A DNA stretch of 64,000 nucleotides from Candidatus Gastranaerophilales bacterium (lineage in GTDB: Bacteria; Cyanobacteriota; Vampirovibrionia; Gastranaerophilales; Gastranaerophilaceae), in contig CALUUI010000005.1 of assembly GCA_944323925.1 (NCBI GenBank), positions 1-64,000 of the forward strand, given 5' to 3'. This document shows, one piece after another, positions 57,508-64,000 of the stretch. Both the position numbers and the translations under genes were made by a program. The notes below the pieces were generated by a model. The model made no database searches, was not told where the DNA came from, and saw only the letters and a program-made list of their open reading frames with translations. Within the stretch, counting starts at the first letter, position 1. Each line of letters starts with the position of its first letter.

Positions 57508-58080
57508 ATGCTAAAAGCAACATATAAGAAAAAAAGTATAACAGAACTAATAGAGTTAGCACAAGAAGATGATTACAAAGCGTTAGAAGAAATCATCAAA
57601 TCTGTGCAGAAGACAGTATATACAACATTAGAATATTTGATGCCAAATAAATCTAATATCTCAGATTTAACTCAAACAGTTTTAATCAAAATGTCTAAAA
57701 ATATAAAAACACTAAAAAGCCCCCAAAAATTTAATATTTGGCTAAACAAAATAATCACAAATGTATATTTTGACGAAATGCGTCGCCTAAAAAACAAATG
57801 TTTTTATATATCAATAGAAGACAACGAATGTAAAGAATTAAAGGATGAAAAAAGCAATACCCCAGCAGAAAAATGCATAGCACAAGAAATAAATAAAATA
57901 GTAAAAGAATCCATTTTAAGTTTACCGGAGCATTTTAAAATAGCAATAATATTAAGAGAATTTGGCGGATTAAGTTATCAAGAGATAGCAGATATAACCA
58001 ATACCGAAATAGGAACAGTAAAATCAAGAATAGCAAGAGCGCGATCGAGATTACAAAACGACTTAAAACACTGTATATAA
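57508..58080 (+). CDS. ECF-type RNA polymerase sigma factor
   Basis: 190 residues. Region 2 (YKALEEIIKSVQKTVYTTLEYLM, ISDLTQTVLIKMSKNI, FNIWLNKIITNVYFDEMRR) and region 4 (SLPEHFKIAIILREFGGLSYQEIAD, GTVKSRIARARSRLQ) are complete. Group IV (extracytoplasmic function) sigma factor, RpoE/SigW-like. GAGG precedes the ATG. The next gene, 12 bases on, encodes a zinc-finger anti-sigma factor, so it is likely released by an envelope or surface signal. It may control its own operon and perhaps the surface genes downstream. Confidence 0.9.
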   Translation: MLKATYKKKSITELIELAQEDDYKALEEIIKSVQKTVYTTLEYLMPNKSNISDLTQTVLIKMSKNIKTLKSPQKFNIWLNKIITNVYFDEMRRLKNKCFYISIEDNECKELKDEKSNTPAEKCIAQEINKIVKESILSLPEHFKIAIILREFGGLSYQEIADITNTEIGTVKSRIARARSRLQNDLKHCI

Positions 58081-58091
58081 GGAGAATAAAA

Positions 58092-58640
58092 ATGGATTTA
58101 ACCTGCACACAAGTAGAAATGTTACTATCATTTTATATAGATGGCGAATTAAAAGAAAATTTAAAAAACAAAGTAGAAGAACACTTAAAAAATTGCCCTG
58201 TCTGTAGTGCAAAATATGAAACCCTAGTAAAACTATTTAGCGGAATGAGAGAATCAGTAGCAGAATTAAGTCTAAAACAAAGCTATAAGAATGATAACAG
58301 CATAATAAGCAATCCGGATTATAAAACAAATATGTCCGCATACATAGACAATGAACTTGATAATAATGAAAATATAAAAATAAAAAAACTAACAATAAAT
58401 AATAAAAAAGCAAGAAAATATCTAGAAGATAGTTATGCACTAAAGCATATAATAAACAGTGCCTACGAGAAAAGCAAAAATGAAATGAAACAGGATTTTA
58501 GCAAAAATGTAATGTCAACACTTGATATAGAAAACCAAGAATACACAATAAATCCAATAATAAAAGGATTAGCGATTTTATCGTCAGTAGCGCTCTTTGG
58601 AACAATAATAACAGCAGTTGTTTTAAATATAAGCTGGTAA
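58092..58640 (+). CDS. Anti-sigma factor with zf-HC2 domain and C-terminal membrane helix
   Basis: 182 residues. N-terminal zinc-binding anti-sigma domain (LLSFYIDGELKENLKNKVEEHLKNCPVCSAKYE; H-x3-C-x2-C at HLKNCPVC, about 35-42). A second, metal-less copy appears to follow (MSAYIDNELDNNENIKIKK, about 78-130). One membrane helix at the C-terminus (IKGLAILSSVALFGTIITAVVL). There is hardly any periplasmic domain, so the signal must act within or near the membrane. AAGGAG precedes the ATG. Confidence 0.85.
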   Translation: MDLTCTQVEMLLSFYIDGELKENLKNKVEEHLKNCPVCSAKYETLVKLFSGMRESVAELSLKQSYKNDNSIISNPDYKTNMSAYIDNELDNNENIKIKKLTINNKKARKYLEDSYALKHIINSAYEKSKNEMKQDFSKNVMSTLDIENQEYTINPIIKGLAILSSVALFGTIITAVVLNISW

Positions 58641-58641
58641 A

Positions 58642-58980
58642 TTACTTTTTTCTTAAATCAAACAAGGCGCTAATAAACTTAGATACAACTTCAAGTTCAT
58701 AATCAGATAATTTCTTAATATTTAAAATAATTTCATTTCGTCTATTCTTAAGTTTATTAGCATTATCAAAAACAAATAAATCACTAATGTCGACCTGAAA
58801 GACTTTAGCGATAGAAACCAGATTTTTGACTTTAGGGAAATGAATACCATTTTCCATCTTACACAGATGTTGCGTATCAAGCCCAACAAGTTCAGCAAGT
58901 TGTTCTTGAGTTAACCCTGCATTTTTTCGCAAAGTTTTAATTCTATTACCAAATAATTTCTTAAAAATTTCTTCATTCAT
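58642..58980 (-). CDS. XRE-family HTH transcriptional regulator
   Basis: 112 residues. N-terminal helix-turn-helix (RIKTLRKNAGLTQEQLAELVG ... HLCKMENGIHFPKVKNLVSIAKVFQVDISDLF, residues about 13-72) and a short helical C-terminus. Convergent with the anti-sigma gene (one base apart) and divergent from the pilin-YadA gene at 59129, so it could control that promoter. An inverted repeat lies right before its own start. Confidence 0.85.
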   Translation of the reverse strand: MNEEIFKKLFGNRIKTLRKNAGLTQEQLAELVGLDTQHLCKMENGIHFPKVKNLVSIAKVFQVDISDLFVFDNANKLKNRRNEIILNIKKLSDYELEVVSKFISALFDLRKK

Positions 58981-59128
58981 TACAGTTCTTTAATCTTACC
59001 TAGCACAAGGTAAATATAGAATATTGTCATTAAACAATAAAATATTGACAAAGTTGTTGTATTATGACATGTATATTATGTATAACTTGATATTCTTTAC
59101 CAAGTACTTGATAGAATGAGGAAGAAGG
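58981..59128. promoter_or_regulatory. Divergent control region with repeats
   Basis: Between the XRE gene and the adhesin-like gene. TTACCT (58996-59001) and AGGTAA (59008-59013) form an inverted repeat with a 6-base spacer, a likely operator. TTGACA occurs at 59046-59051. The direct repeat TATTATG is at 59061-59067 and 59075-59081 (14 bases apart). No -10 box is exactly 17 bases from TTGACA, so the start point is uncertain. GAAGAAGG-type ribosome site before ATG 59129. Confidence 0.45.
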
Positions 59129-61339
59129 ATGAAAAATATTTTACGAATAAAGAGCGGATTTTCATTAATGGAAATGATGGTCGTAATGCTGGTTGTCGCA
59201 GTAGTTATGGCACTATCTGCACCAATGATAACAAAGAAATCATTAGGAAGCGGTTCAGGCGGGTGTTTGTGGACTAGCTTAACAGGTGGTAATATTGGCT
59301 ACAACATGAACCAGTCTGTAATATCCGCAGTAATAGGCGGTGATAATGGTGATATAGGTACGATGGGAGCTAATATTCCTAAGTTAACTATCTCCTCAAG
59401 CGGAAACTATCCTCAGATCGGCTTTTTACACGAAAACACAAAGGCCGGTATATTAATGTTAAGCAATACAAATAGTCTATCGTTAGGACAAAATATAGAA
59501 AATACAGGCTCTGAGAGTATATCAATCGGTTCAAACGCGAATGCTGCTGACTATGCAGCAATAGCAATGGGCTCATCAGCTATTGCGCAAAATCAATATA
59601 GTATAGCTATTGGTCGAAACGTCAGTGCTTTAAACACTTATGCTATATCAATAGGTTATGGTTCAAATGTAACAGGAGACCAAGCAACAGCAGTCGGTCC
59701 GGGAACAAAAGCAACAGGAACAGAATCAACGGCTATTGGACAAGCCGCTAATGCTAATGGAGAGATTTCAACCGCTCTTGGATATTATTCCGTAACAGAA
59801 GGTAATGCAGCAACAGCGATAGGGGCAAATGCAAATGCAAACAGAGGTGTTGCAGTTGGTTATCACGCTAATGCAAATGGTGCTTGTTCTACCGCAGTAG
59901 GTCAATCAGCAACTGCAGATGGAGATTATACAACCGCCCTTGGGCATTGCTCTATTGCCGGTAGAATGAACAATACTGTTGTAACATTTGGCAACGAATC
60001 AACAGCTGTTGGTCGAAATGCCTATGCAACAGGTTCAAAATCTATAGCTGCAGGATATTATGCTAATGCTAGTAGCAGTGAAGCATCTGCTTTTGGGTAT
60101 CACGCAAATGCACTTAATACTAGTGCCGTGGGTATAGGACACCATGCTAACGCTAATGGTATAAACTCAACAGCACTTGGATTCAATGCAACAGCTTCTG
60201 CTAATGACTCTATTGCTATCGGATATGCTATTGCCAGCGGTACTAATTCTGTCGCTATTGGCCGTCAATCAATGTCTTCAGGACTCAATGCTATTGCTTT
60301 TGGGTATAACGCAATAGCCGGAGCATATGCGGCTACAGCTATTGGTAATAACGCAAATGCTTCTGGGTCATCATCTATAGCTATTGGAAAACATGCACGC
60401 TCTGATTGTTCTGAAAGTATTGCTTTAGGTATCAATTCAAACGCTTCCCCATCATTATTACCATCAATAGCCATTGGTTCTTACAGTAGTGCACGTGGGG
60501 GGACATCGACAGCTATTGGATGGTCAAGTAATGCAAATGGCTATGGTTCCGTTGCTCTTGGAGAACTAGCAAAGGCAACTGGAACTTTTTCAACAGCTAT
60601 TGGACCCGCCGCAAATTCTCAATATAATCACTCTACTGCTATAGGTTGTGGAGCTGAGACTACAGCAGCTAATCAAATAGTATTGGGGAATAGCAATACA
60701 ACCGTCTATATCCCTGGGAAACTAATAGTTGGTAGTTATTCTTTTTTAGGAATACATATTACAAGCAAATCTGCTTTATGGACAAGAGCAAAAAAAGGTC
60801 ACAATTCATGTGGTAGTGGCTGGCTTCAAGATAACGACGAACATGGTTGGCATTTCAATAAGACCTCGACATATACACTAGATCAAGCAATAAATTATTC
60901 ATCAGACCGACGTCTTAAAGACATAATAGGCGAAAATTTGGATGCAATGAATAAGATTAATCGGTTAAAAATCTATGATTATACCTTCAAAAAGGATGAC
61001 CTAAAGACTCCGCACGTTGGTGTTATTGCTCAAGAGCTTCAAAAAGTCTTCCCTAACGCCGTTACTAAAGACGAAAACGGTTATCTGCAAATCAGACACG
61101 AAGACATGTTCTTTACTATGATAAATGCTCTGAAAGAACTTGATTCAAAAATCAAAAAACTGGCAGAACAATTAGCTGATAACATCAAAATCGTTTCTAA
61201 TGACAACCAAAGAATCAAAGAACTAACAATTCGTGTTAATAATCAAGACAAACAGCTTAAAACTCAAGATAAAGAAATTAGAGCACTAAAAAAAGAAGTT
61301 GCTGATTTAAGAAAGTTAATAAATAAAAAATTAAAATAA
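59129..61339 (+). CDS. Chimeric surface protein: prepilin N-terminus, YadA-like head, S74 chaperone
   Basis: 736 residues. (1) A class III/type IV prepilin start, SGFSLMEMMVVMLVVAVVMALSAP: Gly before Phe, Glu at +5, hydrophobic helix. (2) From about 110 to 530, over twenty 14-residue YadA/Hep_Hag head repeats (AIGxxAxAxGxxSxAxG), e.g. STAIGQAANANGEISTALG. (3) From about 590, SDRRLKDIIGENLDAM, FKKDDLKTPHVGVIAQELQ, an endosialidase-type intramolecular chaperone (Peptidase_S74) of phage fibres with the Ser-Asp start for self-cleavage. (4) A terminal coiled coil. No YadA beta-barrel anchor. I know of no described protein with this layout. Confidence 0.85.
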   Translation: MKNILRIKSGFSLMEMMVVMLVVAVVMALSAPMITKKSLGSGSGGCLWTSLTGGNIGYNMNQSVISAVIGGDNGDIGTMGANIPKLTISSSGNYPQIGFLHENTKAGILMLSNTNSLSLGQNIENTGSESISIGSNANAADYAAIAMGSSAIAQNQYSIAIGRNVSALNTYAISIGYGSNVTGDQATAVGPGTKATGTESTAIGQAANANGEISTALGYYSVTEGNAATAIGANANANRGVAVGYHANANGACSTAVGQSATADGDYTTALGHCSIAGRMNNTVVTFGNESTAVGRNAYATGSKSIAAGYYANASSSEASAFGYHANALNTSAVGIGHHANANGINSTALGFNATASANDSIAIGYAIASGTNSVAIGRQSMSSGLNAIAFGYNAIAGAYAATAIGNNANASGSSSIAIGKHARSDCSESIALGINSNASPSLLPSIAIGSYSSARGGTSTAIGWSSNANGYGSVALGELAKATGTFSTAIGPAANSQYNHSTAIGCGAETTAANQIVLGNSNTTVYIPGKLIVGSYSFLGIHITSKSALWTRAKKGHNSCGSGWLQDNDEHGWHFNKTSTYTLDQAINYSSDRRLKDIIGENLDAMNKINRLKIYDYTFKKDDLKTPHVGVIAQELQKVFPNAVTKDENGYLQIRHEDMFFTMINALKELDSKIKKLAEQLADNIKIVSNDNQRIKELTIRVNNQDKQLKTQDKEIRALKKEVADLRKLINKKLK

Positions 61340-61340
61340 C

Positions 61341-61399
61341 TAACCGGATATAATCCGGTTATGTGCTTGCTTATATGCGGAACATAGTTCCGCTTTTTT
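61341..61399 (+). terminator. Terminator of the chimeric surface protein gene
   Basis: First a hairpin AACCGGAT (61341-61348) / ATCCGGTT (61352-61359), then GCGGAAC (61376-61382) / GTTCCGC (61386-61392) followed by seven T. The second is a classic intrinsic terminator. Confidence 0.8.
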
Positions 61400-61447
61400 T
61401 ATATAAAAATTATATTACAAAACAATAATAAAACCAAAATCAAACAC

Positions 61448-62386: not shown

Positions 62387-62478
62387 TTGAATTTATAGAT
62401 GACAAAAGTCCTAAAAAGTGGTACATTAGTTATATAAAATTGTTTAGAGAGTTTTATAAAAAAGAAAGGAATAATCAA

Positions 62479-63195
62479 ATGTCAGCAAAGAGACAAAAAG
62501 GCTTTACACTGGCGGAAGTACTTATTACCTTAGCAATAATAGGTGTAATTGCTGCACTAACAACACCTGCGGTCATAAGAAACAGCCAAAATGCTAAAAT
62601 CGGACCACAGATTGCAAAAATAGTAACAACCTTAGAAAATGCAACTCAATCTGCTTGCGTTGAACAAGAAAAGCACTATTTTAAAGATGTTGTCAATCCT
62701 GACGAACTGGACAATATTAATTTGGCAAGTCAAATAAAACTTTTGTCTAATAAATTTATGAAAGCTAAAGAATTCAGTTTTAAACAAGGTGAATCACTTC
62801 CGACGGTTGTAGGTATGAACTATAGTACATACGAGATGCCAGAAACATATAGTATCTTTATGTTTTCAGATAAATCAGCAATTTTAGTACCTTCTTGTAC
62901 ACTTGGAACCAGTGAACAAAAAGAAGAAGGCAGTGACGAAGCTGAAACAGTCATAACTGACAATTGCAAAATTTTTGCCATGATGCCGGGTTTTGCAACA
63001 AAAAACAGGCTTATGCTTGGTAGAGATATTTTCCCTCTGTATATAACAAGAGACGGAGATGTTGTAACGCCTAAAGAAGCAGGTGATGCGACAGAAGCTG
63101 ATACTTGTACTGATGCTAATATAGCCGCAGGAGCAATCACTGGCTATGGGTGCATCAATAGAATTGCAGATAACGGCTGGAAAGCTGATTGGTAG
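62479..63195 (+). CDS. Type IV pilin-like protein, array copy 1
   Basis: 238 residues from ATG 62479 (AAAGGA eight bases upstream; the open frame starts 13 codons earlier). Prepilin leader MSAKRQKG, cleavage before FTLAEVLITLAIIGVIAALTTPA with Glu at +5. The globular domain has several Cys (SACVEQ, VPSCTLG, DNCKIFAM) and ends with DTCTDANIAAG, GYGCINRIADNGWKADW. Either a pseudopilin/minor pilin of a type II secretion or type IV pilus machine. The C-terminal GYGC-x-RIA-x2-GWK-x-D pattern is shared with the next gene. Confidence 0.85.
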   Translation: MSAKRQKGFTLAEVLITLAIIGVIAALTTPAVIRNSQNAKIGPQIAKIVTTLENATQSACVEQEKHYFKDVVNPDELDNINLASQIKLLSNKFMKAKEFSFKQGESLPTVVGMNYSTYEMPETYSIFMFSDKSAILVPSCTLGTSEQKEEGSDEAETVITDNCKIFAMMPGFATKNRLMLGRDIFPLYITRDGDVVTPKEAGDATEADTCTDANIAAGAITGYGCINRIADNGWKADW

Positions 63196-63218
63196 ATTTT
63201 TATTGGAAAGGATTTATT

Positions 63219-63920
63219 ATGAAAAAATATAAAGGTTTCACTTTAGCAGAAATTCTAATTACAATTGCAATTATTGGTGTAGTTGCAGCGTTAACAGCTC
63301 CTGCTCTTATTCAAAGTGCTAACAATGCAAAAATAGGACCGGAACTTGCAAATGCAATTTCTACACTCGAAAATGGTGTACAACAATTTTTAAGTGATAA
63401 TAACTCTGATTATATTTCTGTAGCAATGAAAAAAACTGGTGCTAGCGATACAAAACTTGAAACATTAATCTCCAGTTATTTATTTCAGCATTCTATCAAG
63501 GGTGCATATATTAAAGGTCTTAAGCTAACAACAACTTCGTTAACCCCTACTACTTCTTATAAATGGAACGGAGAGGAGGGTGGTTTAAGCGGTGATGGTT
63601 CGACTTGGATTCTCAATAATAAAACAGCAATAAAAGTTGAAGCAGATGACTGTAATTTCAGTGCTACTGATTCGATATGCGGAATTATTTTTTATACTTC
63701 CGGATATCAAAAAAAGGTTGTTAATAACAAATTAGTAACGGGCAAAGATGTTTTTAAAATTAATCTATCAAATCAAGGTGAAGTACTTCCAGAAGGTCAA
63801 ACTCCAGGTCATGACTGGTGGGGTACCACCTGTGGCGATGCTGAGCTTAAAGCGGGAACAGCAACAGGGGTTGGTTGTGCCGGGCGTATAGCTACTAAAG
63901 GCTGGAAAGTTGATTATTAA
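63219..63920 (+). CDS. Type IV pilin-like protein, array copy 2
   Basis: 233 residues from ATG 63219 (GGAAAGGA upstream; the frame opens 10 codons earlier, overlapping the first pilin). Leader MKKYKG then FTLAEILITIAIIGVVAALTAPA. The N-terminal third resembles copy 1 (NAKIGPELANAISTLENG), the middle differs, and the end TTCGDAELKAG, GVGCAGRIATKGWKVDY is again conserved. Likely a disulphide-stabilised pilin domain. The gene is 23 bases after copy 1. Confidence 0.85.
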   Translation: MKKYKGFTLAEILITIAIIGVVAALTAPALIQSANNAKIGPELANAISTLENGVQQFLSDNNSDYISVAMKKTGASDTKLETLISSYLFQHSIKGAYIKGLKLTTTSLTPTTSYKWNGEEGGLSGDGSTWILNNKTAIKVEADDCNFSATDSICGIIFYTSGYQKKVVNNKLVTGKDVFKINLSNQGEVLPEGQTPGHDWWGTTCGDAELKAGTATGVGCAGRIATKGWKVDY

Positions 63921-63939: not shown

Positions 63940-64000
63940 ATGAAAATAAAAGGTTTTACATTAACAGAAGTCTTAATAACTTTAGGTATCATTGGGGTTA
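63940..64000 (+). CDS. Type IV pilin-like protein, array copy 3 (cut by window edge)
   Basis: Only the first 20 codons are inside the window: MKIKGFTLTEVLITLGIIGV, a prepilin leader with Gly-Phe cleavage site and Glu at +5. GGAAAGGA lies before the ATG and it begins 19 bases after copy 2. The array therefore has at least three tandem members. Confidence 0.8.
   Translation, partial: MKIKGFTLTEVLITLGIIGV

Follow-up and report, generated by a model that had tools for sequence, protein, structure and literature searches.

The gene at positions 59129-61339 (+) of the window, the 64,000-nucleotide stretch of Gastranaerophilales DNA analyzed here, encodes a 736-residue protein with a type IV prepilin N-terminus, a long series of YadA-type head repeats, and a C-terminal S74 intramolecular chaperone followed by a coiled coil. 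To judge from the sequence comparisons, the prepilin and the S74 domain are the constant frame of a family that extends across the order Gastranaerophilales, gut bacteria that are non-photosynthetic relatives of cyanobacteria. The protein is probably a modular minor pilin bearing a self-chaperoned trimeric fiber, from which the S74 domain would be cut off so that an adhesive tip becomes exposed on a type IV pilus.

Architecture of the protein

The reading frame is single and intact, open over 736 codons, in accord with the preliminary description of this DNA. A purine-rich ribosome-binding stretch, gaggaagaagg (59118-59128, +), lies directly 5' of the ATG, and a terminator-like hairpin with a T-run (61377-61400, +) is found 3' of the gene, in a fitting position, such hits in general being no more numerous than in shuffled sequence. 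The leader MKNILRIKSG (residues 1-10, 59129-59158, +) ends in Gly10, after which prepilin peptidase would be expected to cut, and the site is canonical, with Phe11 following and Glu15 at +5. The prepilin N-terminus and its Glu at +5, both claimed at the outset, are borne out by the Pfam N_methyl profile, which matches residues 8-29 (E 3.9e-5) above its curated cut-off, and by the prepilin profile TIGR02532, also above its own cut-off. The mature hydrophobic helix (residues 11-37, 59159-59239, +; residues 13-29 in the structure model) leads into a short Gly/Ser linker, SLGSGSGG (residues 38-45, 59240-59263, +), and a post-linker segment (residues 46-119, 59264-59485, +); model confidence is low from residue 30. 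Pfam gave no match to a globular pilin module of the beta-sheet type beyond the helix, and residues 30-106 are modeled with low confidence.

The YadA-type head repeats occupy residues 120-525 (59486-60703, +). YadA_head (PF05658) is matched in 14 stretches above its curated cut-off (E 2.4e-51), and 22 regular-expression matches to the core motif agree with the more than twenty repeats counted initially. Next come a predicted distal tip (residues 526-591, 60704-60901, +) and the Peptidase_S74 domain (PF13884, residues 592-646, 60902-61066, +; E 1.6e-15, above the curated cut-off), which opens with the predicted self-cleavage residue Ser592 (codon 60902-60904, +) and has Lys597 at +5. The C-terminal part (61067-61336, +) contains a long coiled coil of the trimerizing type (model helix 657-735). 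The S74 chaperone with a coiled coil stands as first described, and it has the Ser...Lys(+5) pair. The spacing in Ser592-Asp-Arg-Arg-Leu-Lys597 is that of S587/K592 in MYRF and S911/K916 in endoNF (PMC8326128), and of S1264/K1269 in T5 pb1 (PMC4690869).

The single-chain structure model (mean pLDDT 67) starts with the N-terminal helix and ends in the coiled coil; between them is a beta-roll, whose pLDDT is about 90 through most of residues 170-420. Residues 30-106 and 522-619 are modeled unreliably, the S74 region is of low confidence, and a separate model of the C-terminal part is poor (mean pLDDT 57). Fold comparison turned up nothing significant in the PDB and, in BFVD, matches that include YadA-like heads, at low TM-scores. 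The beta-barrel through which YadA heads are usually exported was said to be missing, and a profile search, with a positive E. coli control, indeed detects no YadA_anchor in the protein or in the host genome. Membership in the trimeric autotransporters was accordingly rejected: the head repeats are present but the C-terminal YadA_anchor barrel is absent genome-wide.

A constant frame across the order

The search for the same architecture in other genomes, which the preliminary description had proposed, yielded 88 different S74 ORFs whose 5' ends are intact, from 39 Gastranaerophilales genomes (families f1, f6, and f7). All 88 begin with the prepilin motif and all 88 keep S-D-xxx-K. Of 150 ORFs in these loci that lack S74 and are 300 aa or longer, 4 carry the motif: two resemble membrane transporters, and two are prepilins beside the gene triplets described below. 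Pfam recovers S74 in 70/70 members checked, N_methyl in 61/70, and YadA_head in 26/70. Four S74 ORFs read outside f1, f6, and f7 lack the prepilin: L124 and L136, each from another family (that of L124 belonging to the phylum), and L134 and L135, from the same class. A single contig scan with the 736-residue protein recovered relatives combining prepilin and S74 only in Gastranaerophilales or unnamed metagenome-assembled genomes. From these Pfam counts, and from the lack of a prepilin outside the families, it follows that, at the sequence level, prepilin and S74 are the constant frame and the YadA shaft is one among several shafts. The protein, described at first as an isolated chimera that joins three unrelated systems, belongs instead to an order-wide, often multi-copy family, most members of which have no Pfam-detectable YadA head. 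The attendant worry that the chimera arose by assembly error is likewise laid to rest, because the same frame recurs in independent genomes.

S74 is present in 49/116 sampled relatives and in 84/292 genomes of the phylum sample, mostly in the window's own family. Three genomes (G349, G162, and G026) contain 11-12 S74 genes each, scattered over contigs; numbers of this order suggest large fiber repertoires. A different solution is seen in L066 (5980-7392, +), which encodes a prepilin N-terminus, a YadA-like head, and a C-terminal coiled-coil-like stretch without S74, and seems to be a stalk that manages without this chaperone.

The members have diverged widely: in an alignment of 70 rows, mean column identity is 13%, and the only invariant columns are Glu+5 (Glu15), Trp48, Ser592, Asp593, Lys597, and Gln635, that is, the pilin assembly residue, the S74 self-cutting pair, two further S74 residues, and one Trp. 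Glu+5, present in 70/70 members, is important when type IV pilins assemble into filaments. At residue -1, Ala (39/70) and Gly (30/70) predominate, both of them accepted at prepilin sites (PMC10191384, PMC8179133). Conservation reaches its minimum at residues 541-580, immediately N-terminal of the S74 domain. Trp48 (59270-59272), just past the linker, is invariant in 70/70 members.

Paralogs with common ends and different tips

The host genome holds exactly one further S74 gene, C11 (L003 5616-7814, -), on another contig. At the DNA level, the two copies are 100% identical over 59150-59544, 48-82% identical across the YadA heads, and about 35-43% identical over 60744-60899, where the tips are unrelated; identity resumes at the Ser592 codon (60902) and is 93-100% from 60900 to about 61200. 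The flanks of the two copies are unrelated and each is unique. In phage fibers, the receptor-binding tip sits just before the S74 cut site.

The same pattern is seen across the genus. Copies within one genome are alike in their N-terminal 270 nt (identity 1.00, 0.94, 0.88, and 0.87) and in 300 nt of S74 (0.96, 0.94, and 0.89), the exception being one G006 copy at 0.73-0.81; between genomes, both ends are at 0.62-0.83, mostly below the within-genome values. The tips fall into class A (the window copy, G002, G003a, and G006a) and class B (C11, G003c, and G006b), with alignment scores of 67-204 for A-A, 72-102 for B-B, and -14 to 4 for A-B, and both classes are common to several genomes and species. 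These sequences are most simply read as two tips, old and distinct, that have persisted while recombination or gene conversion acted on both ends. In these draft genomes many contigs end inside such genes, so that copy numbers are lower bounds, and part of the identity at the ends could be an assembly effect; the two copies in the host genome have their own unique flanks. Cassette inversion and silent copies were considered and rejected: the S74 genes of the host genome number only two, as do its YadA loci, and no silent S74 or YadA pieces were seen elsewhere in it.

Tandem triplets

In eight genomes (G065, G031, G080, G075, G074, G079, G082, and G034), three prepilin-S74 genes stand in tandem, overlapping or nearly touching, and a two-plus-one layout is seen in four genomes of the same genus (G013, G050, G174, and G339). 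Directly 3' of the triplet, a fourth prepilin gene, this one lacking S74, is present in G079 and G082 (f6) and in G075 and G080 (f7), an arrangement that can be likened to a minor-pilin operon; these f6 and f7 genes are at L098 8121-9605, L104 2722-3690, L138 3622-5106, and L139 8423-9319. In a tree of S74, built on a short alignment and with many forks unresolved, the members of that genus and of f7, and partly those of f6, cluster by position in the triplet, not by genome. This grouping suggests that the three genes may have three separate roles and would allow a heterotrimer. A speculative scenario, to be taken or left as a whole and in our estimation rather improbable, goes further: in the triplet lineages, which in f6 and f7 also have the fourth, adjoining prepilin gene, the three different prepilin-S74 chains would form an obligate S74 heterotrimer, self-processing in the manner of phage fibers, that replaces the minor-pilin tip complex together with PilY1 and primes the pilus; the paralogs of the window's genome would be a simplified descendant, a pair whose tips diversify as recombination holds the two ends alike.

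Proposed assembly and maturation, and alternatives

The host genome encodes a prepilin peptidase (C3), a secretin adjoined by PilB/GspE and PilC/GspF (C2), two PilT-family ATPases above the cut-off, and 14 N_methyl proteins, so that the peptidase and the assembly ATPase and platform on which type IV prepilins depend are at hand. PilM has no match in the host genome, and the machine is therefore not a textbook T4aP. Type IV pilus genes have been reported before in the Gastranaerophilales group (PMC5877343).

We infer, as did the preliminary description, a prepilin route, trimerization driven by S74, and self-cutting before Ser592, a course of events that fits all the findings. As the motif and the host genes imply, the prepilin would enter the inner membrane, where the peptidase would cut after Gly10 and the helix would stay. 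In the periplasm, by analogy with the S74 family, the coiled coil and S74 would gather three chains and fold the tip and the YadA-type shaft. The invariant residues Ser592 and Lys597 would then cut the chain in front of Ser592, so that about 145 residues are lost and the variable tip is uncovered, much as cleavage in T5 pb1 has been proposed to unmask the receptor-binding tip (PMC4690869). Finally, the N-terminal helices would be built into a type IV pilus or a pseudopilus, in all likelihood at the tip, where the homotrimeric minor pilins TcpB and CofB also sit (PMC9565799), and the fiber would pass out through the secretin. Outside, the tip may bind a gut surface or a cell, and copies with constant ends and different tips would make up a repertoire of binding specificities. 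The grafting of adhesive modules onto pilins is in itself established and widespread (PMC8179133).

Two features weigh against the last of these steps: the mature pilin-like part would be a helix and a flexible linker, with no recognizable pilin globular domain for packing into a filament, and a C3 trimer with three helices could be accommodated in a pilus of one-start helical symmetry only by way of flexible linkers. The prepilin helices might instead hold the trimer in the inner membrane, as a fiber that is periplasmic or spans the cell wall and never enters a pilus. The reduction of the pilin-like part to the N-terminal helix alone, followed by a linker, speaks for such an anchor, but one would not expect mere anchoring to preserve Glu+5 in 70/70 members, the diversification of tips suggests exposure to outside ligands, and the f6 and f7 genes are joined to another prepilin gene; this alternative accordingly seems unlikely, if worth keeping in view.

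The fate of the S74 domain invites a still less probable alternative, namely, that it acts solely as a folding and trimerization cap that is left uncut and remains as a distal knob, as do the uncleaved trimerization domains of other fibers, e.g., the fin of the P22 tailspike (cited in PMC4690869). Against such a cap stands the retention of Ser592 and Lys597, invariant in 70 very diverged members and present in 88/88 ORFs. That S74 is a pilus-displayed peptidase acting on other proteins, as suggested by the listing of pilin+S74 under "peptidase activity" (Raynaud et al. 2021, PMC8179133), we find hard to credit, given that characterized S74/ICA domains cut their own chain, within the trimer (PMC8326128, PMC3742443), and that S74 here, like that of phage fibers, comes C-terminal of fiber repeats and is joined by a coiled coil. 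A prophage tail-fiber gene or an assembly chimera can be dismissed almost entirely: phage fibers often carry S74 and YadA-like repeats, but the neighbors are housekeeping genes, the same frame occurs in 39 genomes, no close match and no confirmed relative was found among viral contigs, and the best phage matches cover only about 20% of the query.

Relation to known systems

The fusion of pilin and S74 as such is already catalogued: IPR012902-IPR030392 is among the 15 commonest modular pilin architectures in Raynaud et al. (2021, PMC8179133), where S74 is read as a peptidase and YadA does not appear in the main text. In the non-subscription papers searched, we found no description of a self-maturing trimeric fiber of this kind, nor of its YadA shaft, its tips, the gene triplets, or the order-wide rule. 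With modular type IV pilins of the S. sanguinis PilB/PilC type, the protein shares the class III signal peptide with Glu5 and the grafting of a non-pilin module, but here the module is of the trimeric-fiber type (YadA shaft, variable tip, S74, and coiled coil) and there is no recognized pilin globular domain. TcpB and CofB of type IVb pili are large trimeric minor pilins at the pilus tip with a binding surface (PMC9565799); the likeness is a functional analogy only, since their C-terminal domains are others, no S74 chaperone has been described in them, and no sequence relation has been shown.

The C-terminal half of the story belongs with the S74/ICA fibers of phages (T5 pb1, endoNF, and phi29 gp12) and with MYRF, in which a C-terminal chaperone with a coiled coil and the Ser/Lys(+5) pair follow the functional part; in the phage fibers, too, a variable tip is combined with a constant chaperone. 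The difference is that the present protein is cellular and inserted into the membrane N-terminally by a prepilin helix. From YadA and the type Vc adhesins, with which it shares the head repeats, it differs in having no YadA_anchor barrel and a prepilin segment in place of the Sec signal peptide. The PilV shufflon minor pilins (R64 and TP114; PMC9045228) likewise join a constant N-terminal prepilin part to alternative adhesive C-termini, but here the alternatives are separate genes, constant at both ends.

The family points to a concrete way, open to testing, for a trimeric adhesin to get to the surface with no autotransporter barrel to carry it, and it would represent the uptake of a phage-fiber maturation domain into the pilin repertoire of a whole order of gut bacteria. 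The design and the copy number suggest home-made, phage-like fibers displayed on pili, and suggest also that the pilin+S74 entries in databases are self-maturing fibers rather than pilus-borne peptidases. Surface adhesion in Gastranaerophilales is little explored in the literature that we found, and the tip is a defined piece for ligand tests.

Genomic neighborhood

The neighbors of the gene at 59129-61339 are housekeeping genes. Directly upstream, 57508-58640 (+) encodes an ECF-type sigma factor and then a possible anti-sigma factor, and 58642-58980 (-) a divergent XRE-type regulator. Just downstream begins a row of prepilin-type genes (GFTLAE...; 62440-63195 and 63189-63920, +), with further N_methyl matches at contig positions 63943 and 64623; the row belongs to the 14 prepilins of the genome, and two of its proteins end in a similar GxGCxxRIxxxGWKxDx motif. 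Elsewhere, adjoining the prepilin peptidase gene, L113 7403-8584 (+) encodes a prepilin followed by a long PTPEPTP-type repeat.
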